From: Deltaproteobacteria bacterium
Lineage (GTDB): Bacteria > Bdellovibrionota_F > JAHFAK01
Direction: 5' to 3'
DNA length: 12,611 nucleotides
Assembly (NCBI GenBank): GCA_023250585.1
Contig: JAHFAK010000069.1
Span: 1 to 12,611 of the forward strand
Positions within the stretch are counted from its first letter, which is position 1. Every line of letters starts with the position of its first letter. This document shows positions 2 to 12,241 of the stretch, piece by piece. Below the pieces are notes generated by a model. The model was not told the origin of the DNA, did not search any database, and saw only the letters and a list, made by a program, of their open reading frames with translations. The position numbers and the translations under genes were made by a program.

Positions 2-940
2 TTACTCAAATAAACTGCTGACACTCTCGCCATTATGTACATTTTGAATTGCATTGGCAAAAAGCTTTGCAACACTCAATACTTTTATTTTGCTCGTTAT
101 TTTTTCTTGTGGGATTGGAATAGTATTTGTTACTACAATTTCTTCTAGTGGTGAATTGGTTAGCAATTCAGTGGCCTTTCCTGACATTACTGGATGTGTA
201 CAGGCGGCCATTACTTTATTGACTTTGCCTTTTGATTTTAAAAAACTTACTGCTTCGATAATGGTCTTCCCTGATGCTATTTCATCATCGACGAGTAAGG
301 CATTCATTCCTTCGACATCTCCAATAATGTTTACGGCCTTTGGTTTTTCATCATTACCGCTTCTTCGTTTATCGATAATTGCAATGGGAAGCCCGAGCCG
401 ATTCGCGTATCTTCGCACATCCCTAATTTCTCCTGCATCAGCAGCAACCATAACGTAATCATCAAGTTTTTTTTCTTTTAAATAACCACAAATAATCGGA
501 GTGGCACGAAGTTGATCTAAGGGAATTCTAAAAAATCCTTGAATTTGATCAGAATGCAGATCCATCGTGATTACTCTATGTGCGCCAGCTGTTTCAAGCA
601 GATCAGCCATGAGCCGTGCAGTAATAGATATTCGTGGTTGGTCTTTTTTATCGCTGCGGACATAAGGAAAATAGGGAATAACCGCAGTGATTCTTTTTGC
701 TGAGGCATGTTTTAATGCATCAATCATAATCAAAAGTTCCACAATTCCTTCATTTACGGGAGAGACAGATGTTTGAACAACAAATACATCTTCTTCGCGA
801 ACATTTTCTAGAATTTTTACAAAGAGATTTTCATTACTAAATTTGATGAGTTCTGATTTTCCTAAGGAAATATCTAAATGTTCACAAATCTCAATCGCCA
901 GTGCTTTATGTGAAGACCCTGCAAAAACTTTTAATCCCAT
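2..940 (-). CDS. prs: Ribose-phosphate pyrophosphokinase (PRPP synthetase)
   Basis: Makes PRPP from ribose 5-phosphate and ATP in the cytoplasm, feeding purine, pyrimidine, histidine and NAD synthesis. From the ATG at 940 the product is 312 residues, close to the usual 310-320. Seen in the sequence: the ATP-site stretch YFPYVRSDKKDQPR (about residues 90-103), MDLHSDQIQGFF (126-137), the catalytic-loop IDKRR (about 190-194) and the PRPP-binding loop LLVDDEIASGKT (215-226). That loop normally reads DDxxxTGGT, so SGK in place of TGG is a mild deviation. An in-frame TTG at 958 would add six residues, but the ribosome binding site and the homologous N-terminus (GLKVFAG) favour 940. It follows the cold-shock/Sm gene by 22 bases and is probably co-transcribed with it. 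The stop codon lies at the window edge, so anything downstream is not visible. Confidence 0.96.
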   Translation of the reverse strand: MGLKVFAGSSHKALAIEICEHLDISLGKSELIKFSNENLFVKILENVREEDVFVVQTSVSPVNEGIVELLIMIDALKHASAKRITAVIPYFPYVRSDKKDQPRISITARLMADLLETAGAHRVITMDLHSDQIQGFFRIPLDQLRATPIICGYLKEKKLDDYVMVAADAGEIRDVRRYANRLGLPIAIIDKRRSGNDEKPKAVNIIGDVEGMNALLVDDEIASGKTIIEAVSFLKSKGKVNKVMAACTHPVMSGKATELLTNSPLEEIVVTNTIPIPQEKITSKIKVLSVAKLFANAIQNVHNGESVSSLFE

Positions 941-962: not shown

Positions 963-1805
963 TTACAATGTTTTATTAGGCGTGGTAATTCTTCGTCGCC
1001 GAATAACCGTTTCTGTTCGATTATTTCCGGTGCTCTTTTTGGTAATCTTTGTAACTTCTCTGGGTGGCGGAGGTGCTTCTACGGGAATTTTTTCAATTGA
1101 GAAATCCATAACCGCGTGTCTCATGATATAGAGGTTCGCTTTAGGATGTACCCAAAAGAGTAATTCATATTTAGTAAACCAATTAATAACTCCTGTAATA
1201 ATTGTTCCATCAAGAAGCAAAAATTTGACAGTTGCGTTTTTATTGAAAGCTTCCTTTAAGCTGTCATTATTAATGCGATATCTCTCGGTAACTTTTTTAG
1301 AAACCTCACAATTTTTTTTCTTTATTTCTTCATTTATGCTCATAATCTCAGCAAAGCGTTCATAATAATGTTCTTTATGGAGGTATAAGATTTCAATTTT
1401 CGGAATAGAAATATCTCCGGTGCCTGCTGCATCTATGATAATTTCATATGGTTTACTTTTTTTTATTAACCCCGATAGTTTTCGATTTTTAGTTAAAACA
1501 CAGGTAACTTTAACTTTTCCCGAGATAAGTTTTTTGAGATAACTATTCCCAATATCACCTAAAAGACGTTTCCCATAGTTTCGTAATTTTTTAACCCGCT
1601 TTGCTTGTATCCCTTGCTCAGTTTGAAGGAGCTCATATTCAACTTCATCACCTTCCAGAAAGATATTATTTTTGTAATTAATAAGATTACGTCGATGGAT
1701 GAATAAATCTTTGTGATCTTGAGTGAGTATAAATCCGTAGTTTTTATTGACATCAAACCATTTGAGGATACCGCGGTGTCGTTCTTGTCTTCCTTTGGGC
1801 TCCAT
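963..1805 (-). CDS. Cold-shock domain protein with two tandem Hfq/Sm-like domains
   Basis: A 280-residue putative RNA-binding protein. Residues 10-72 match a cold-shock domain: GILKWF, then KNYGFI at the RNP1 position and LFIH at the RNP2 position. Residues 88-143 read like an Hfq/Sm fold: a short helix (YLKKLISGKV), then VTCVLTKNRKLSGLIKK and a beta-strand pattern. Residues 182-240 form a second and clearer Hfq-like unit: VKFLLLDGTIITGVINWF, then YIMRHAVMDF where Hfq has the YKHA segment. The tail from 241 is proline-rich, then basic (RRRR at 269-272), and probably disordered. The domains are assigned by eye from hydrophobic and motif patterns, the second Sm unit more safely than the first. 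It is the first gene of a unit with prs, is divergent from hemW, and has a strong Shine-Dalgarno. The role is inferred to be an RNA chaperone or post-transcriptional regulator. No named family with this whole architecture is recognised. Confidence 0.85.
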   Translation of the reverse strand: MEPKGRQERHRGILKWFDVNKNYGFILTQDHKDLFIHRRNLINYKNNIFLEGDEVEYELLQTEQGIQAKRVKKLRNYGKRLLGDIGNSYLKKLISGKVKVTCVLTKNRKLSGLIKKSKPYEIIIDAAGTGDISIPKIEILYLHKEHYYERFAEIMSINEEIKKKNCEVSKKVTERYRINNDSLKEAFNKNATVKFLLLDGTIITGVINWFTKYELLFWVHPKANLYIMRHAVMDFSIEKIPVEAPPPPREVTKITKKSTGNNRTETVIRRRRITTPNKTL

Positions 1806-1865: not shown

Positions 1866-3011
1866 ATGGGTAATACCTTTTATTTATATGTGCATATCCC
1901 TTTTTGTCAATCAAAATGTCCATATTGTGATTTTGTTTCATTTCGTGCACCCCACGAACAAATAGACAGATATATTAATTCGTTACAACAAGAAATACAA
2001 CTCATATTTTCTAAGGACTTCAAGGGGTATGACCTTCAAAGTATTTATTTTGGAGGGGGTACGCCATCGTGGATTCCTGAACGTTATATTGCTGAGATTC
2101 TTAAAACGGTAAAAGATTTTTTTCCATTGGATCAAATAGAAAAAACAATAGAACTCAATCCAAATGTAGAAAAGTATAAAATTACAGCGTATCGTGATAT
2201 GGGAATTAATCGGTTATCAATCGGAGCACAATCATTCAAGAAAGATAAACTGACATTTTTGGAACGCGATCATGGTGTAAATGATACTATGAGTTTGCTG
2301 AGAGAAATTGAACGTGTGAACTTTCCTAACACATCAGTTGATATTATCTTTGGATTATCCGATGAGGAAAACATAGAAGAGGAAATTGCCAATCTTGGTA
2401 AATATCATAATGTCGTTAAGCATGTTTCAGCGTATGAATTAACTCTAGAAAAGAGCGTTCCTTTATTTGAACGTTATCAAAAAAAATATCTGTGTAAGGA
2501 GGAAAGGGGCGGAGAACTTTACGCTGATATGATTCGAGAGCTGGGCAAGCTAGGGTATGAGCAGTATGAAATCTCGAATTTTGCACAAAAAGGATATGAA
2601 TCGAAACATAATCTTTCGTATTGGAGCTGGGAGAATTATGTTGGGGTAGGGATTTCTGCTGCATCTTTTATGAATTTTCCAAGACCATATGGAAGTCGAT
2701 GGAAAAATGTAAATAGTATTAATGAGTATTTTCAGGCAATTGAAGAAAATAGATTGCCCCGTATCTATGAAACTATTGATCGACGTAAAGCATTTGAAGA
2801 TTATCTTCTTACCGGGCTCAGAAAAAATAGTGGCATCTCTTTAGTACATTTTGAAAATACATTTGGAGAACATTACAAAGCATGTTTACAATCTTATGAT
2901 ATATTAGTTAAAGAGCAGCTGCTCGAAGTGAATAATGACTTTCTGTATGTGACAAATGCCGGAAGAATGGTTTTGGATAGTATTATCGAGATGCTGACAA
3001 AAGATTTTTAA
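1866..3011 (+). CDS. hemW: HemW-like radical SAM protein (heme chaperone; coproporphyrinogen oxidase-like)
   Basis: A 381-residue radical SAM protein of the HemN/HemW family. The N-terminus YVHIPFCQSKCPYCDF carries the CxxxCxxC 4Fe-4S motif (C14, C18, C21) followed by F23. HemW has F at this position; true coproporphyrinogen III dehydrogenase HemN has a fourth cysteine. GGGTPS (63-68), ELNPN, RLSIGAQSF and YEISNFA are further family motifs, and the length matches E. coli HemW (about 380). The known role of HemW is heme binding and transfer to hemoproteins rather than coproporphyrin oxidation. The ATG at 1866 fits homologous N-termini. An in-frame TTG at 1845 would add seven unsupported residues. 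No Shine-Dalgarno is visible. The gene stands alone and converges on oppF: the TTAA at 3008-3011 contains both stop codons. Confidence 0.93.
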   Translation: MGNTFYLYVHIPFCQSKCPYCDFVSFRAPHEQIDRYINSLQQEIQLIFSKDFKGYDLQSIYFGGGTPSWIPERYIAEILKTVKDFFPLDQIEKTIELNPNVEKYKITAYRDMGINRLSIGAQSFKKDKLTFLERDHGVNDTMSLLREIERVNFPNTSVDIIFGLSDEENIEEEIANLGKYHNVVKHVSAYELTLEKSVPLFERYQKKYLCKEERGGELYADMIRELGKLGYEQYEISNFAQKGYESKHNLSYWSWENYVGVGISAASFMNFPRPYGSRWKNVNSINEYFQAIEENRLPRIYETIDRRKAFEDYLLTGLRKNSGISLVHFENTFGEHYKACLQSYDILVKEQLLEVNNDFLYVTNAGRMVLDSIIEMLTKDF

Positions 3012-3985
3012 TACAAATGACAAGCTACTTTGGTATTTCCAATCTGCTGTAATCGTGGTTCTTCCACTTCACAACGATCAAATTTTTTCGGGCATCGTGT
3101 ATGAAAACTACATCCCTGTGGTGGATGTAAAGGACTAGGAATATCGCCTTTGAGAATAATTCTTTTTGTCTTTCTCTCTTTTTCTCGCTGTGGGTCTGGG
3201 ACAGGAATAGCACTTATGAGCGCTTCGGTATAAGGATGGAGAGGCTGCTTAAATAGTTCATGAGTCGGCGCTAATTCAACAATTTTTCCTAGATACATAA
3301 CCGCGACTCGGGTACTAATATGTTGAACAACACTGAGAGCATGAGTAATAAAAATGTATGAAAGATCATAGTAAATCTGAAGTTCTATTAATAAATTTAT
3401 GATTTGTGCTTGGATAGAAACATCAAGTGAAGAGATGGGTTCATCTGCAATAATTAATTTTGGGTTGAGTGCAAGTGCCCGTGCAATACCAATGCGTTGA
3501 CGTTGCCCGCCGCTGAATTCATGAGGGTATCTTCTGATATAGCTTGGATTTAATCCGACTATATCCATTAACTCAAATACTTTTTTTCTTCGCTCAGTAT
3601 GATCCCCAACCCTATGTGTTTTCAAAGGTTCAGCAATGATACTTTCAACAGTCATTCGTGGATTAAGCGAAGCATAGGGGTCTTGAAAAATCATTTGAAT
3701 ATTTTTTCGATAACTTCTGAACGTATGCTCGGGTAATGTAGTAATATCCTTATTGTCAAAAAGAATTGTACCGCTTGTGGGCTCATACAGTCGCATAATA
3801 GTTCTTCCCAATGTTGATTTTCCACAACCTGATTCCCCAACAAGTCCGAGTGTTTCGCCTCGCTGAATATCAAGTGAAATTCCATCTACTGCTTTAAGGT
3901 TTGCAATTGTCTTTTGAAAGAATACGCCCCTCTTTACAGGAAAGTATTTTTTTAAATTAATTGTTTGTAATAATATCTCACTCAT
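3008..3985 (-). CDS. oppF: Oligopeptide ABC transporter ATP-binding protein OppF
   Basis: A 325-residue cytoplasmic ATPase of the OppD/OppF (DppD/DppF) family. Seen: Walker A GESGCGKST (50-58), Q-loop FQDP (Q101), ABC signature FSGGQ (157-161), Walker B LIIADEP (177-183) and switch histidine H215. After the histidine the usual aspartate is alanine (THAL instead of THDL). The C-terminal oligopeptide-transporter domain carries the family cysteines C292, C298, C305 and C322. It pairs with OppD to power the OppB/OppC channel. It is the last gene of the opp operon. Here it is 191 bases from oppD instead of an original 26, because of the inserted element at 4009-4165. There is only a weak GGA about eight bases before the ATG. 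Convergent with hemW. Confidence 0.95.
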   Translation of the reverse strand: MSEILLQTINLKKYFPVKRGVFFQKTIANLKAVDGISLDIQRGETLGLVGESGCGKSTLGRTIMRLYEPTSGTILFDNKDITTLPEHTFRSYRKNIQMIFQDPYASLNPRMTVESIIAEPLKTHRVGDHTERRKKVFELMDIVGLNPSYIRRYPHEFSGGQRQRIGIARALALNPKLIIADEPISSLDVSIQAQIINLLIELQIYYDLSYIFITHALSVVQHISTRVAVMYLGKIVELAPTHELFKQPLHPYTEALISAIPVPDPQREKERKTKRIILKGDIPSPLHPPQGCSFHTRCPKKFDRCEVEEPRLQQIGNTKVACHLY

Positions 3986-4008
3986 AATTATAATCCAAAA
4001 ATCCCATC

Positions 4009-4165
4009 GTAATCCCTCGGTTATAAGGGAGTAGGAATGTTCTCAAAAAGAATTTCTATCGACGTCGCTTCCATAAAAATATTAAGAACGGGGTAAGCGC
4101 GCTCGATAGAAATTCTTTTTGAGAACATTCCTACTCCCTAACTCCACCATTAACTGAGCTGGTAC
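4009..4165. mobile_element. MITE-like non-autonomous element, copy 1 (157 bp), within the opp operon
   Basis: The element starts GTAATCCCTCGGTTA and its other end, read inward from 4165, starts GTACCAGCTCAGTTAATGG. The termini share GTA....CTC.GTTA as imperfect inverted repeats. It is bounded by an exact 8-bp direct repeat. The interior is a long perfect palindrome and there is no coding capacity. The right terminus matches the left terminus of the element at 8599-8752 at 18 of 20 positions, so the two belong to one family. From general knowledge, IS66-family elements often begin GTAA and duplicate 8 bp, so an IS66-type transposase acting in trans is a reasonable guess. No transposase is present in the window. 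Confidence 0.85.
4026..4139. repeat. Perfect 37-bp inverted repeat inside MITE copy 1
   Basis: Bases 4026-4062 are exactly complementary to 4103-4139, with a 40-base loop. The loop's own ends (CGTCGCTT and AAGCGCGC) nearly continue the stem. Transcribed from the opp operon, this would fold into a very stable hairpin between oppD and oppF and could attenuate oppF or protect upstream mRNA. That role is inference. Confidence 0.95.
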
Positions 4166-4176
4166 ATCCCATCCCC

Positions 4177-5136
4177 TTAATACAGGTGACATGAAACTTT
4201 GCAATTTCCTACCTCTTTTAATTGTGGTTCTTCTTTATCGCATTTATCAATTTTCTCGGGACAGCGTGGATGAAATCGACAGCCTGTCGGTGGTTTTGCA
4301 AGATCAGGAGGAAGTCCGGGAATAGAAAGCAATCGATTTCCCTTCGTTGTATCAAGTCGCGGGACCGACTGTAAAAGGGCCTTAGTATACGGATGCTTTG
4401 GTGTATTGAAAATATCAAATGTAGAAGCTTCTTCTTTAATTTGACCCGCATACATAACAATGATTCGATCAGTAAGCCCTGCTACAACACCAAGATCATG
4501 AGTAATCAATATAACACTCATACCTTTTTGTTTTTTTAAATTGTCAATGAGTTCGAGCACCCCAGCTTGAATCGTGACATCGAGCGCGGTCGTTGGTTCA
4601 TCTGCAATTAAAAGTTCAGGGTTATTGAGCAGAGCCATTGCGATCATTACTCTCTGTCTCATTCCTCCGCTGAGTTCATGAGGATAACTTTCAATCCGTT
4701 TATCAGCAGCAGGAATTCCAACCTGAATGAGTCCTTCAACAGATTTTTTATATGCATCCTGTTCTGAAATATTCGTATGGGTGAGTATTGTTTCCATGAG
4801 TTGAGTTTTTATCGAAAGAAATGGATTCAATGATGTCATGGGATCCTGAAATATCATTGAAATTTTATTTCCTCGAAGCTTGCGCAAAGATTCAAGATCC
4901 ATATGGAGTAAATCTTTTCCTTGAAAGTGTACGTTGCCCGATTCGATTTTTGAAGGAGGAGAGGGCAGAAGGCCAAGATATGCAAGATGGGTTACCGATT
5001 TACCTGATCCACTTTCTCCAACAACCCCAAGCGTTTCGCCTTTTGCTACATGAAAAGAAACATCATCAACTGCTTTGACGATTCCATCACGCGTATGAAA
5101 ATAATTTTTTAAGTTTTTTACTTCAAGTATATTCAT
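4177..5136 (-). CDS. oppD: Oligopeptide ABC transporter ATP-binding protein OppD
   Basis: A 319-residue ATPase partner of OppF. Seen: Walker A GESGSGKS (40-47), Q-loop FQDP (Q97), signature LSGGM (155-159), Walker B LLIADEP (175-181) with the catalytic glutamate, and switch ITHDL (H213). The C-terminal oligo/dipeptide domain carries cysteines C286, C292, C299, C312 and C316. The LSGGMRQR signature and the KSVT after Walker A are typical of OppD/DppD rather than OppF. Its ATG follows the oppC stop codon with no gap (TAAATG), indicating translational coupling. Both ATPases end in the same residues, CHLY, consistent with an old shared origin. Confidence 0.95.
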   Translation of the reverse strand: MNILEVKNLKNYFHTRDGIVKAVDDVSFHVAKGETLGVVGESGSGKSVTHLAYLGLLPSPPSKIESGNVHFQGKDLLHMDLESLRKLRGNKISMIFQDPMTSLNPFLSIKTQLMETILTHTNISEQDAYKKSVEGLIQVGIPAADKRIESYPHELSGGMRQRVMIAMALLNNPELLIADEPTTALDVTIQAGVLELIDNLKKQKGMSVILITHDLGVVAGLTDRIIVMYAGQIKEEASTFDIFNTPKHPYTKALLQSVPRLDTTKGNRLLSIPGLPPDLAKPPTGCRFHPRCPEKIDKCDKEEPQLKEVGNCKVSCHLY

Positions 5137-6027
5137 TTAATCTTTCTTTGCCTTTGGATCTAGCGCATCTCTTAGCCCATCTCCTACAAAATTTAATGAT
5201 AGCAATGTTAATGCTAATATACTCGCGGGAAATATAACCATCCACGGATATATTTCCATTACCTGCGCTCCATCGGTAATGAGCAATCCCCAACTCGACA
5301 TGGGAGGCTGTACGCCTAAACCTAAAAAGCTTAAAAAGGATTCTTCAAGAATTACAGTGGGAATCGTGAGCGTTGAATATATAATCATAGGTCCCATTGC
5401 ATTGGGAATAAGATGCCGCAAAATGATTGATCCTTTCGAAACTCCCATGCTTTTTGCAGCTAAGACAAATTCTTTTTCTTTAAGCGAGAGCACTTGTCCA
5501 CGAATGATTCTACTCATAGTGAGCCATTGCACTGCTCCGAGGGCAATAAAGAGATTATAAATATTTCTTCCAGCGATCACCATAAGAATAATAACAAAAA
5601 ACATAAAGGGTAAACTGTAGATAATATCAACGATTCTCATCATGATATTATCGGTTCGGCCTCCCAAAAAACCAGCGATTGATCCATAGAGAACGCCAAT
5701 AATGAGGCTGACAATCGTAGCGAGGACTCCAACCATTAAAGAAATACGGCCGCCATAGAGTATTCGCGTAAAAAGATCTCGTCCTAAATCATCGGTTCCC
5801 ATTATGTGTTCTTTATTTGGTGATTGTGGCCCATAGATAAGATCTTGTTCTTCATATGAATAAGGTGCAATGATTGGTGTAAGTAAAGAAGCTGTTGCTA
5901 TGATTGCAAGGATGCTGAGTCCAAATAATGCGAGCTTATTTTTTTTGAGACGATACAGTGCATCTCGCAGAAGACTCGTGCCTTTTTCAATTCTTATAGT
6001 TTCATAATTCTTTGCGATACTACTCAT
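5137..6027 (-). CDS. oppC: Oligopeptide ABC transporter permease OppC
   Basis: A 296-residue inner-membrane permease. After a cytoplasmic N-terminus there is a first membrane helix near residues 33-53, the periplasmic segment HIMGTDDLGRDLFTRILYG (about 74-92) typical of OppC/DppC, and then five further hydrophobic helices. The cytoplasmic EAA loop EFVLAAKSMGVSKG...LRHLIPN contacts the ATPases. The C-terminus GDGLRDALDPKAKK is typical of the family. It overlaps the end of oppB by eight bases (ATGAGTAG) and abuts oppD. It forms the translocation pore with OppB. Confidence 0.95.
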   Translation of the reverse strand: MSSIAKNYETIRIEKGTSLLRDALYRLKKNKLALFGLSILAIIATASLLTPIIAPYSYEEQDLIYGPQSPNKEHIMGTDDLGRDLFTRILYGGRISLMVGVLATIVSLIIGVLYGSIAGFLGGRTDNIMMRIVDIIYSLPFMFFVIILMVIAGRNIYNLFIALGAVQWLTMSRIIRGQVLSLKEKEFVLAAKSMGVSKGSIILRHLIPNAMGPMIIYSTLTIPTVILEESFLSFLGLGVQPPMSSWGLLITDGAQVMEIYPWMVIFPASILALTLLSLNFVGDGLRDALDPKAKKD

Positions 6028-6937
6028 ATTTTACCCGTGGATCGAGAAGTGTATAGACAATATCCACAACCAAATTCATAAAAATTAATATTACCGCATA
6101 AAAAAGTACGGTACCCATAACCATGGTGTAATCACGATTCAGAGCGCTTTGAATAAAATAGCGTCCAAGGCCGGGTACATTAAATATTGTTTCAACAACG
6201 AGTGATCCGGTAACGATACCCGCAAATGCTGGTCCCAAAAAAGTTACGACGGGCAAAAGCCCGCCCTTTAATGTATGTCGTAATACTATCGTTCTTTCTT
6301 TAAGTCCCTTCGCCCGAGCTGTCCGAATAAAATCTTGATTTACAATTTCAAGCATTCCCCCGCGAGTTAATCGGGCAATATATGCTGTGTACATTGCTCC
6401 TAAGGTTATGACAGGCATGATCATATGAGGAATTGAACTCCATCCTGCGACGGGAAGGATATTAAAATGGAGAGCAAAAATTAAAACAAGCAATGGGCCA
6501 AGTACAAAACTCGGTAAAGAAATTCCAAGCGTAGCAAGACCCATAAAAAAATAATCAACACGTGAGTTATGTCGAAGGCTCGAAAGAATGCCAGCAATTA
6601 TTCCAAAAATACTTGCAAATAAAAGAGCCCAAAAGCCAAGTTCAAAGCTTACCGGAAAACTTTGCATAATAATTTCATTAACGCTTCTATTTGCATATTT
6701 AAACGAAGGACCAAGATCAAGATGTGCTAAATCTTTTATATATCTTAAATATTGCATGTAGAGTGGTTCATCAAAATGATATTTTTTATTGATGGTTTCG
6801 AGAATTTCTGGCGGCAGTGCTTTTTCTGAATCAAAAGGGCCTCCCGGGACAATCCGTATAATGAAAAAAGTTATAGTAGCAATAATGAGTAATACGGGGA
6901 TAGTAGATAGAATTCGTTTGAGTATGTATCTAATCAT
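6020..6937 (-). CDS. oppB: Oligopeptide ABC transporter permease OppB
   Basis: A 305-residue inner-membrane permease of the OppB/DppB family. The N-terminus MIRYILKRILSTIPVL is the family's hallmark first helix and is followed by a periplasmic region (PGGPFD...YHFDEPLYMQY) and five further helices. The EAA-type loop is QDFIRTARAKGLKERTIVLR. The C-terminus VDIVYTLLDPRVKY is also characteristic. It starts seven bases after the oppA stop and overlaps oppC. No good Shine-Dalgarno is visible, so it may be translated by coupling. Confidence 0.95.
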   Translation of the reverse strand: MIRYILKRILSTIPVLLIIATITFFIIRIVPGGPFDSEKALPPEILETINKKYHFDEPLYMQYLRYIKDLAHLDLGPSFKYANRSVNEIIMQSFPVSFELGFWALLFASIFGIIAGILSSLRHNSRVDYFFMGLATLGISLPSFVLGPLLVLIFALHFNILPVAGWSSIPHMIMPVITLGAMYTAYIARLTRGGMLEIVNQDFIRTARAKGLKERTIVLRHTLKGGLLPVVTFLGPAFAGIVTGSLVVETIFNVPGLGRYFIQSALNRDYTMVMGTVLFYAVILIFMNLVVDIVYTLLDPRVKYE

Positions 6938-6944
6938 TTATTTT

Positions 6945-8552
6945 CTATTCTTCAAAATATACATATTTAAGTAAATGCATATCGAGAAGGTTTGGTAAAA
7001 ATCCTTTTATCTTAGGATTTAATAAATAACTTCGCGTATAAAAGTATATAGGAATAAAAGGTCCTTTTTCTAATAATAATTCTTCAGCCTTTTGATAAAG
7101 GCTGTATCGTACTTGTGTATCAACTGTTGCAGCTGCTTCTTTTATGAGCTCATCATATTCAGAATTTTCCCAGCCCGTTTGGTTCATTCCGCTTTTAGAA
7201 GTAAATATATTTAAAAACGCGCTGGGTTCAATGTAGTCTCCAATCCAGCCTCCTCGAGCAATGTCATAATTAAGTGTTTTTACATTGTTGAGGTAAACCT
7301 TCCATTCTTGATTAAAAAGTTTTACCTCAATGTTGAGATTTTTTCGTAACATATCCTGAAGAGCTAGCGCTATTCGTTGGTGATCAAGTTGGGTATTATA
7401 CAAAATTTCCAACGATGGAAATCCTTTTCCATGAGGATATCCTGCTTCAGCTAAAAGAGCACGAGCTTTTTTGACATCGAATTCCAATACATTCGGAGAA
7501 GTATATCCATGAATTCCAGGAGGGACAAGAGAATAGGCCGGTAACTCACCGGCTTTCTTAATATAATCGGTAATTTTTTTTCTATCTATGGCAAGTTTTA
7601 AAGCCATGCGTACTTTTTCGTTATCAAATGGCTTTTTGGTAACATTCAGTCGATACATATAGATTGTTAAAAAAGGGTCAGAACGAAAGAATGGTTTCTT
7701 CCGCAAAAATGGAATTCGTATATCGGGTACTTCCTTTGTATAATCAAGCTCACCTGAGGCAAAGAGTTTTTGTTCAGTATCGAGATTTTCGATTGGAAGA
7801 AGCTCAACGGTGGTGAGTTTGACATTTGATGCATCCCAGTACGTAGGATTTTTTTTAAGAACAATCCGTTCTTGATGTAACCATCTGTCGAGTAGAAATG
7901 CTCCGTTGGTAACTATGTTTTCTGGTTTAGTCCAATTCCTTCCGTATTTTTCGACTGTTTTTTTATGAACAGGATCATAGGTAAAAAAGTACGTAAGTTG
8001 ATCAAAAAACGGAGTGGGCCCTTCGAGTTGGACTTGCAATGTATAGTCATCAAGTGCTTTTACTCCTATCATCTCAGGATCATTTAATTTGCCACTATTA
8101 AATGCCTGCGCATTTTTGATATAAAAAAGAATATATGCATATTCGGCCGCAAGTTTGGGATTTAATACTCTTCTCCATGCATAGACAAAATCATGAGCTG
8201 TTACCGGATCGTTATTAGACCACACAGCATTTTTTCGTAGATAAAAGGTAAAAACAGTTGCATCTGCATTTGGTTTCCAAGATTCTGCTACCCCTGGACT
8301 CGGTAATCCTGTGTGGAGATCGGGAGTAGTGAGTCCTTCAAAAAGATTTTCTACCACTTGTGACTCTATATTACCGGTAATTATTCCAGGGTCTAAATCT
8401 TGAGGTTCAGAACCATTACCCTTGCGAAAAATATGTGATACTTTTCCGTGTTCTTTTTTTTCTTTTTCTTCACGTTGAAGAGTGCACGTAGAACTGTACA
8501 TCATTATCAGGGTACAAAGTAAAATGTATGTATATCTACGGATACTTAACAC
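6945..8552 (-). CDS. oppA: Oligopeptide-binding protein OppA (SBP family 5)
   Basis: A 535-residue extracytoplasmic peptide receptor. The N-terminus has two arginines, a hydrophobic stretch (residues 7-19) and C23 in YSSTC. This could be a degenerate lipobox (threonine at -1 is atypical), so it may be a lipoprotein or a Sec-secreted protein. Family features: EPQDLDPG, VVENLFEGL, ESWKPNAD...FYLRKNAVWSNNDPVTAHDFVYAW, and later VRMALKLAIDR and ARALLAEAGYP. These match the OppA/MppA group, including its usual length. The start is GTG at 8552; a later ATG pair at residues 17-18 would destroy the signal sequence. First gene of oppABCDF. No Shine-Dalgarno is visible, and a predicted promoter lies immediately upstream. 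Confidence 0.94.
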   Translation of the reverse strand: MLSIRRYTYILLCTLIMMYSSTCTLQREEKEKKEHGKVSHIFRKGNGSEPQDLDPGIITGNIESQVVENLFEGLTTPDLHTGLPSPGVAESWKPNADATVFTFYLRKNAVWSNNDPVTAHDFVYAWRRVLNPKLAAEYAYILFYIKNAQAFNSGKLNDPEMIGVKALDDYTLQVQLEGPTPFFDQLTYFFTYDPVHKKTVEKYGRNWTKPENIVTNGAFLLDRWLHQERIVLKKNPTYWDASNVKLTTVELLPIENLDTEQKLFASGELDYTKEVPDIRIPFLRKKPFFRSDPFLTIYMYRLNVTKKPFDNEKVRMALKLAIDRKKITDYIKKAGELPAYSLVPPGIHGYTSPNVLEFDVKKARALLAEAGYPHGKGFPSLEILYNTQLDHQRIALALQDMLRKNLNIEVKLFNQEWKVYLNNVKTLNYDIARGGWIGDYIEPSAFLNIFTSKSGMNQTGWENSEYDELIKEAAATVDTQVRYSLYQKAEELLLEKGPFIPIYFYTRSYLLNPKIKGFLPNLLDMHLLKYVYFEE

Positions 8553-11358: not shown

Positions 11359-11473
11359 AAGAATGGCTCTTCGGATAAGTTCTATTCATTTCGGTAGATT
11401 TCTGAGTATATTGTTACCACAATGTGACCATTTTTGATATACAAATATACATAAGTTGACATTTTTTAATTTT

Positions 11474-11503
11474 TTGTCATTTTATGTATATGAACAATAT
11501 AAA
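11474..11503 (+). promoter_or_regulatory. Possible promoter of the HEPN-like gene
   Basis: TTGTCA at 11474-11479 and TATAAA at 11498-11503 with an 18-base spacer, giving a short leader that contains the GGAGA at 11516-11520. A TTGACA at 11456-11461 with poorer -10 candidates downstream is an alternative. The whole stretch is very AT-rich, so chance matches are likely. Confidence 0.35.
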
Positions 11504-11524
11504 TACATTTTTTGTGGAGAAAAA

Positions 11525-12241
11525 ATGGCAACTTATGAGTCAAATTCTAGTAAATATTTAAACAAATTTCATAGGGATCATGCCTATTACGATCTACTCA
11601 ATATTGCGATTCATCATTTTAAAGAAGCTTATTGTATTAAAAATTTTGTGAGGCTAAGAAAAATTCCTTTTCATGATACAAAAAAATTGGAAAAGAATTA
11701 TGCAAGTTCTGGAGATTTTGCAAAAGAGGCGATCATAGATAATGTTAAAATAACTACTTGCTTTGAAAATTACTTAAAAGGCCTTTTAATTTACAAAGGA
11801 TATATTATTCATAAAATTGATAGAAAAATAAAGAACAAAAAATTTGCAGCTCTTTCAAATGATCCAAGAGAACGTCCTATTAGAATCAGTCAGTTAAAAA
11901 AAATTGAGAATTACCGAAAGAACCCAAACACAGGGAATCTTAAATTATTTGGACTAAAAGAGTCAACAATAGGATTTAATGGGATATTAAATAGCAATGA
12001 TTATAAGAAATTACATAAATTACCCACAAATATAATGAAAATATTAAATGACATTAAAGAGCGTAGAAATACAATTCATTTTCAGCCAGTGAATCTATTT
12101 AGGAGTTCTGATATCGATCAATATAAACCTCTAATAGAGTTTGTTAATAAAAAAGTGATAAAGAAACACAATTTTTTTGTAAAAAAATATAGAGATAAAA
12201 AGTATTATAGAAATTTCGCCGAAAAATTAATTCCTATCTAG
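11525..12241 (+). CDS. Uncharacterised HEPN-like protein
   Basis: A 238-residue, lysine-rich, mostly helical protein with no signal peptide or membrane segment. The ATG at 11525 is chosen because GGAGA lies just upstream; an in-frame TTG at 11456 sits inside the promoter-like region. The segment CFENYLKGLLIYKGYIIHKI (79-98) and, later, KERRNTIHF (178-186) resemble the two halves of HEPN domains. R180-x4-H185 fits the R-x4-6-H motif of HEPN ribonucleases in abortive-infection and toxin systems. This is pattern matching only; I do not recognise the family. No nucleotidyltransferase-type (MNT) or other antitoxin partner is adjacent. It is more AT-rich than its neighbours and lies between the direct repeats at 10636 and 12344, consistent with acquired cargo. 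It ends at TAG, followed by a terminator. Confidence 0.75.
   Translation: MATYESNSSKYLNKFHRDHAYYDLLNIAIHHFKEAYCIKNFVRLRKIPFHDTKKLEKNYASSGDFAKEAIIDNVKITTCFENYLKGLLIYKGYIIHKIDRKIKNKKFAALSNDPRERPIRISQLKKIENYRKNPNTGNLKLFGLKESTIGFNGILNSNDYKKLHKLPTNIMKILNDIKERRNTIHFQPVNLFRSSDIDQYKPLIEFVNKKVIKKHNFFVKKYRDKKYYRNFAEKLIPI

Follow-up and report, generated by a model that had tools for sequence, protein, structure and literature searches.

Among bacterial RNA chaperones, Hfq and the cold-shock proteins (Csp) are the two textbook cases. Hfq acts as a homohexameric ring to which each chain contributes one Sm domain, and to our knowledge many bacterial phyla seem to lack it. Here we describe a gene in the window (the whole 12,611-nt stretch of DNA analysed) whose 280-aa product carries a cold-shock domain (CSD) followed by two Hfq/Sm-like units, Sm1 and Sm2, an architecture that we regard as near certain. 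The initial annotation knew of no family combining a CSD with tandem Sm units, and our searches agree: no such family and no CSD-Hfq fusion was found in Pfam, in NCBIfam or in the open papers searched.

The gene occupies the minus strand at positions 963–1805, with its ATG at 1803–1805, its stop codon at 963–965 and an AGGAGG ribosome-binding site at 1811–1816, 5 nt 5' of the ATG; these limits rest on the open reading frame and on homologues of like architecture. The CSD (residues 10–75; 1581–1778, minus strand, as for all parts of the protein below) carries the GILKWF, KNYGFI (RNP1) and LFIH (RNP2) segments on which the initial annotation had based its call. Pfam CSD matches residues 11–73 with 50.5 bits (E 2e-13), and the AlphaFold model superposes on CspB with Z 12.2 and an rmsd of 1.2 Å over 66 residues. 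The chain continues with Sm1 (residues 78–144; 1374–1574), a helical linker that is conserved across the family (residues 145–177; 1275–1373; helices at 145–154 and 159–164), Sm2 (residues 178–238; 1092–1274), which ends in an MRHA motif where Hfq has YKHA, and a basic, disordered C-terminal tail (residues 239–280; 966–1091), most of which has a pLDDT below 50.

Sm2 is recognizable from sequence, matching Pfam Hfq over residues 182–235 with 30.0 bits (E 4e-7; gathering cut-off 27 bits), and its family profile finds Hfq structures from archaea and bacteria in the PDB, the best at E 3e-8. The sequence signal of Sm1 is weak on its own: a fragment of residues ~76–162 reached 16.2 bits against Hfq (E 0.008), under the Pfam cut-off, and independent evidence was therefore needed. 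Sm1 of the homologue L002 matched Hfq_1 with 24.4 bits (E 3e-5), below the curated cut-off. Compared with single-domain Hfq profiles, the family profiles gave E 2.7e-6 for Sm1 and 1.3e-11 for Sm2, and the Sm1 profile gave E 7e-9 against Hfq_1-type single-domain proteins; these are single-pair E-values, and the reference Hfqs had been gathered by the family profile itself. A fold search with the full-chain AlphaFold model (mean pLDDT 81.8) returned CSD matches only, so the tandem part was modelled separately (mean pLDDT 88.1, pTM 0.83). Both models show a helix and five strands twice, that is, an Sm fold in each unit, with pLDDT mostly above 90 in Sm1. Sm1 superposed on Hfq chains with Z 7–8 and an rmsd of 1.0–1.6 Å over 62–66 residues, and Foldseek gave a TMt of up to 0.90 on Synechocystis Hfq at E ~1e-3 to 1e-2 for this small domain. 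Such Z values are by themselves middling, and we call Sm1 Hfq-like because nearly every fold-match row is an Hfq and because the sequence evidence agrees. The Sm2 fold is based on sequence, on the secondary structure of the tandem model and on one Sm match (1y96). The two Hfq-like segments that the initial annotation had proposed beyond residue 80 are thus borne out, and the conserved linker and the pTM of the tandem model suggest that they probably sit in a defined arrangement.

Against described families, the protein resembles Hfq (PF17209; TIGR02383) in its Sm fold with an N-terminal helix, in an Sm2 over the Pfam cut-off and in the proximal-face H and R/K kept by Sm2; it differs in having two Sm units per chain and a fused CSD, in an Sm2 without Y25 and in an Sm1 without H57. 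It scores 29.6 bits against the NCBIfam Hfq equivalog TIGR02383, below the cut-off of 61.7. The nearest branch to Sm1 of L002 and to the Sm1 family profile is the cyanobacterial-type Hfq_1, or Hfq-related, group (PF21979, NF047718), and the single-domain proteins L053 and L055, which end in KHxIxYxFK, are likewise nearest; members of the Hfq_1 branch, however, have a single domain, and Sm1 scores under the curated cut-off. The likeness to cold-shock proteins (PF00313; CspA/B/E) lies in a CSD with both RNP1 and RNP2, whereas a Csp is a free-standing protein of ~70 aa and the CSD here is the N-terminal arm of a 280-aa chain; the score against the Csp equivalog NF049933 is 46.8 bits, below its cut-off of 120. 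Borrelia BB0268, considered as an Hfq relative, was rejected, as this gene is FlgV, a two-transmembrane protein (PMC11607428). The longer, 176-position Hfq model PRK14091/NF010691 matches the Sm2 region, but it contains no CSD, only its positions 12–76 aligned, and the fusion protein scores 20.4 bits (12.9 bits in the genome search) against a cut-off of 270.

Conservation was compared with E. coli Hfq in an alignment placed by hand, using what we take to be the Hfq positions Y25, G29, G34, D40/Q41, F42, K56 and H57. In the CSD, K15, K21, G24, F25, I26, F35 and H37 are kept in 38/38 proteins. In Sm2, H230 (Hfq H57) is histidine in 39/39, residue 213 (F42) is Y or F in 39/39, residue 229 (K56) is R or K in 33/39, and the glycines G200 and G205 (G29, G34) are kept in all 39. 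The position of Y25, the distal-face tyrosine, is occupied by T, I, V or L in 38 proteins, and the D40/Q41 pair is missing from Sm2. Sm1 has K136 at the K56 position in 39/39, with T, L, I, S and others at that of H57. Of the proximal-face Y/F-K-H-A motif and F42 of Hfq, Sm2 presents F/M-R-H-A and Y/F, and Sm1 the K only. With Y25 and D40/Q41 changed in Sm2 and H57 gone from Sm1, RNA preferences must differ from those of E. coli Hfq.

Judging from this pattern, three chains could plausibly close into a six-membered Sm ring with Sm1 and Sm2 alternating; the two units differ and each has its own pattern of conservation, which fits the needs of such a ring, short of proof. The pore face would bind U-rich RNA ends through Sm2 Y213, R229 and H230, perhaps assisted by the invariant Sm1 K136, and the CSDs would hang off the ring as single-strand-binding, duplex-opening arms. 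Together, ring and arms could open and pair RNAs, for instance an sRNA with an mRNA, and protect them or present them for decay. We also considered that the Sm1/Sm2 pair works within one chain, as in Gemin6/Gemin7, giving a ring-less adaptor whose CSD grips single-stranded RNA while the protein anchors a nuclease, the ribosome or RNA polymerase to it. The sole non-Hfq fold match is indeed Gemin6 (1y96), whose Sm fold comes from a heterodimer and not from a ring and which aligns to the Sm2 half with Z 7.0; large enzymes, too, can end in a lone tandem-Sm part, a setting in which a three-chain ring would be bulky. Yet pore-side residues are retained in both Sm units and Sm1 matches Hfq chains closely, and we consider an adaptor of this kind unlikely.

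Both folds, CSD and Hfq, also bind DNA, and the protein could instead be a chromosome-associated binder of single-stranded DNA and RNA rather than a post-transcriptional regulator, with the basic tail adding affinity for DNA. A structure of Hfq with dsDNA (5uk7) is among the fold matches, the tail of the window protein is basic, and relatives of the module are found on GmrSD-type and UvrD-type proteins, both families that act on DNA. However, the tail is not conserved, the alignment showing L002 to be without it, and the proximal H and R/K of the RNA-binding face of Hfq are retained, which makes a chromosomal role rather improbable in our judgement.

The homologue search that bears on whether the architecture is lineage-wide recovered it in another genome of the window's class and in dozens of Poribacteria. 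The same-class genome, Deltaproteobacteria bacterium RIFOXYA12_FULL_61_11 (MGSU01000076.1), encodes a 233-aa CSD-Sm1-Sm2 protein, so that both genomes of the window's phylum in the collection (2/2) carry the fusion. A scan of named genomes yielded 53 loci, 52 of them in Poribacteria, most encoding ~310–320 aa, with CSD and Sm1 set apart by a long spacer whose sequence is poorly conserved; Pfam detects the CSD in 38/44 aligned proteins. Tandem-Sm proteins as such are present in 78/84 Poribacteria genomes, often several in each, and in 54/55 good ones. Some poribacterial members (L068, L073, L042) have a basic low-complexity N-terminus in place of the CSD, and members without a CSD occur in other phyla (L044, L046, L047, L048, L043, L045). 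In the phylum of G345, 4/40 genomes have tandem-Sm. Two 538-aa proteins, L043 (622–2235; G365) and L045 (G098), have a C-terminal stretch weakly resembling ParB_N (17.4 bits, under the cut-off), and two proteins of ~600 aa, L049 and L051 (G128, G264), have a divergent tandem-Sm end, with low-complexity RNDRSS repeats in L049. In the tree, the 29 poribacterial CSD members form one group (support 97/99), outside which the window protein and L002 lie on long branches; one fusion followed by losses, or two separate fusions, are both possible origins. Phage or plasmid origin was rejected, no related locus having been found in viral contigs or plasmids. The draft assembly is fragmented (164 contigs), and we accordingly considered whether two genes had been joined by an error of assembly or frame; but the CSD-Sm1-Sm2 order and the linker recur at 20–29% identity in independently assembled genomes, which rules it out for practical purposes, its probability being negligible.

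The window's genome is 96.7% complete, and Pfam profile searches of it found no credible Hfq besides the fusion protein and no CSD protein other than that of the fusion gene. Weak Hfq matches (C37, C158, C105) proved to lie in a peptide-binding protein and unrelated ORFs and were rejected as stand-alone Hfqs. The lack of separate hfq and csp genes rests on these profile searches, and in a draft of this kind a gap could hide either. One poribacterial genome (G040) likewise has the fusion only; G317 and the same-class genome (G001) encode separate Csp proteins besides it. In Poribacteria nearly all Pfam Hfq matches fall inside tandem-Sm proteins, and short stand-alone matches are few (e.g. one of 96 aa in G387). 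The fusion protein is therefore probably an undescribed replacement for Hfq.

Genomic context does not reveal the function of the protein. The gene for ribose-phosphate pyrophosphokinase, prs (2–940, minus strand; assigned from Pfam and sequence), starts 22 nt downstream of the fusion gene's stop and may well be co-transcribed with it. The initial annotation had read this linkage and the strong ribosome-binding site as signs of a well-expressed core regulator. Adjacency and site stand, but the linkage is not conserved: prs is missing around L082, the closest homologue, and only 3/53 fetched loci have it close by, those of the closely related Poribacteria L085, L089 and L092. It consequently says little on role, and prs was rejected as a functional partner; a core role is better argued from the fusion being the genome's only detectable protein of either the Hfq or the CSD kind. 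A hemW-like gene lies upstream in divergent orientation. Farther along, ORF translations reveal an ordinary dipeptide/oligopeptide ABC transporter operon at 3008–8552 (two ATPases, two permeases and a binding protein), and a 261-aa ORF at 11456–12241 has no Pfam match. In Poribacteria, the genes commonly found beside the fusion seem, on reading their sequences, to encode an amidohydrolase, a methylthioribose-phosphate isomerase and a YkgJ-like cysteine protein.

Tandem-Sm units also occur on other, larger poribacterial proteins. Three GmrSD-type (DUF262) proteins carry them at the C-terminus (L168:1213–4593, L170:3224–5887, L173:949–3426) and match the PADLOC models Orf5/HEC-06/mREase_IV. In L168 and L170 cold-shock domains follow the tandem-Sm part, so the order in which the two modules are joined varies. 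Sacsin-type ATPases (PADLOC TmtA; L165:4080–7703, L166:527–4258) have tandem-Sm at their end, as do a UvrD/GajB-like helicase with S1 repeats (L167:1045–5076) and an RNase-H-like exonuclease (L178:1876–2964), both at the C-terminus. The occurrence of the module on GmrSD, sacsin/TmtA-like and UvrD/GajB-like proteins would agree with the window protein belonging, like them, to a system of defence or stress sensing. We find this very unlikely, as the tree sets the defence-type paralogues apart from the window protein (99/97), the neighbours in the window serve housekeeping or transport (prs, hemW-like and the ABC oligopeptide transporter), and tandem-Sm is near-universal in Poribacteria, whereas typical defence genes are patchy.

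Our best explanation, held with modest confidence at slightly better than an even chance, is that this one chain is an RNA chaperone standing in for separate Hfq and Csp proteins. More tentatively, and a little short of an even chance, Poribacteria and a second, tiny phylum may have replaced homohexameric Hfq with a heterotypic ring of three tandem chains that bear CSD arms and alternate two kinds of Sm unit. One protein would then cover the tasks of Hfq and Csp alike, and the tandem-Sm part would have been borrowed as a nucleic-acid sensor of defence enzymes. If true, such a fusion, in which the two Sm units of a chain differ, would mirror in bacteria the step by which uniform Sm rings gave way to mixed Sm/LSm rings in eukaryotes. 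For the defence-like enzymes, tandem-Sm units would amount to a new part for recognizing nucleic acids, and the fusion provides a testable Hfq substitute for lineages in which no stand-alone Hfq has been seen.
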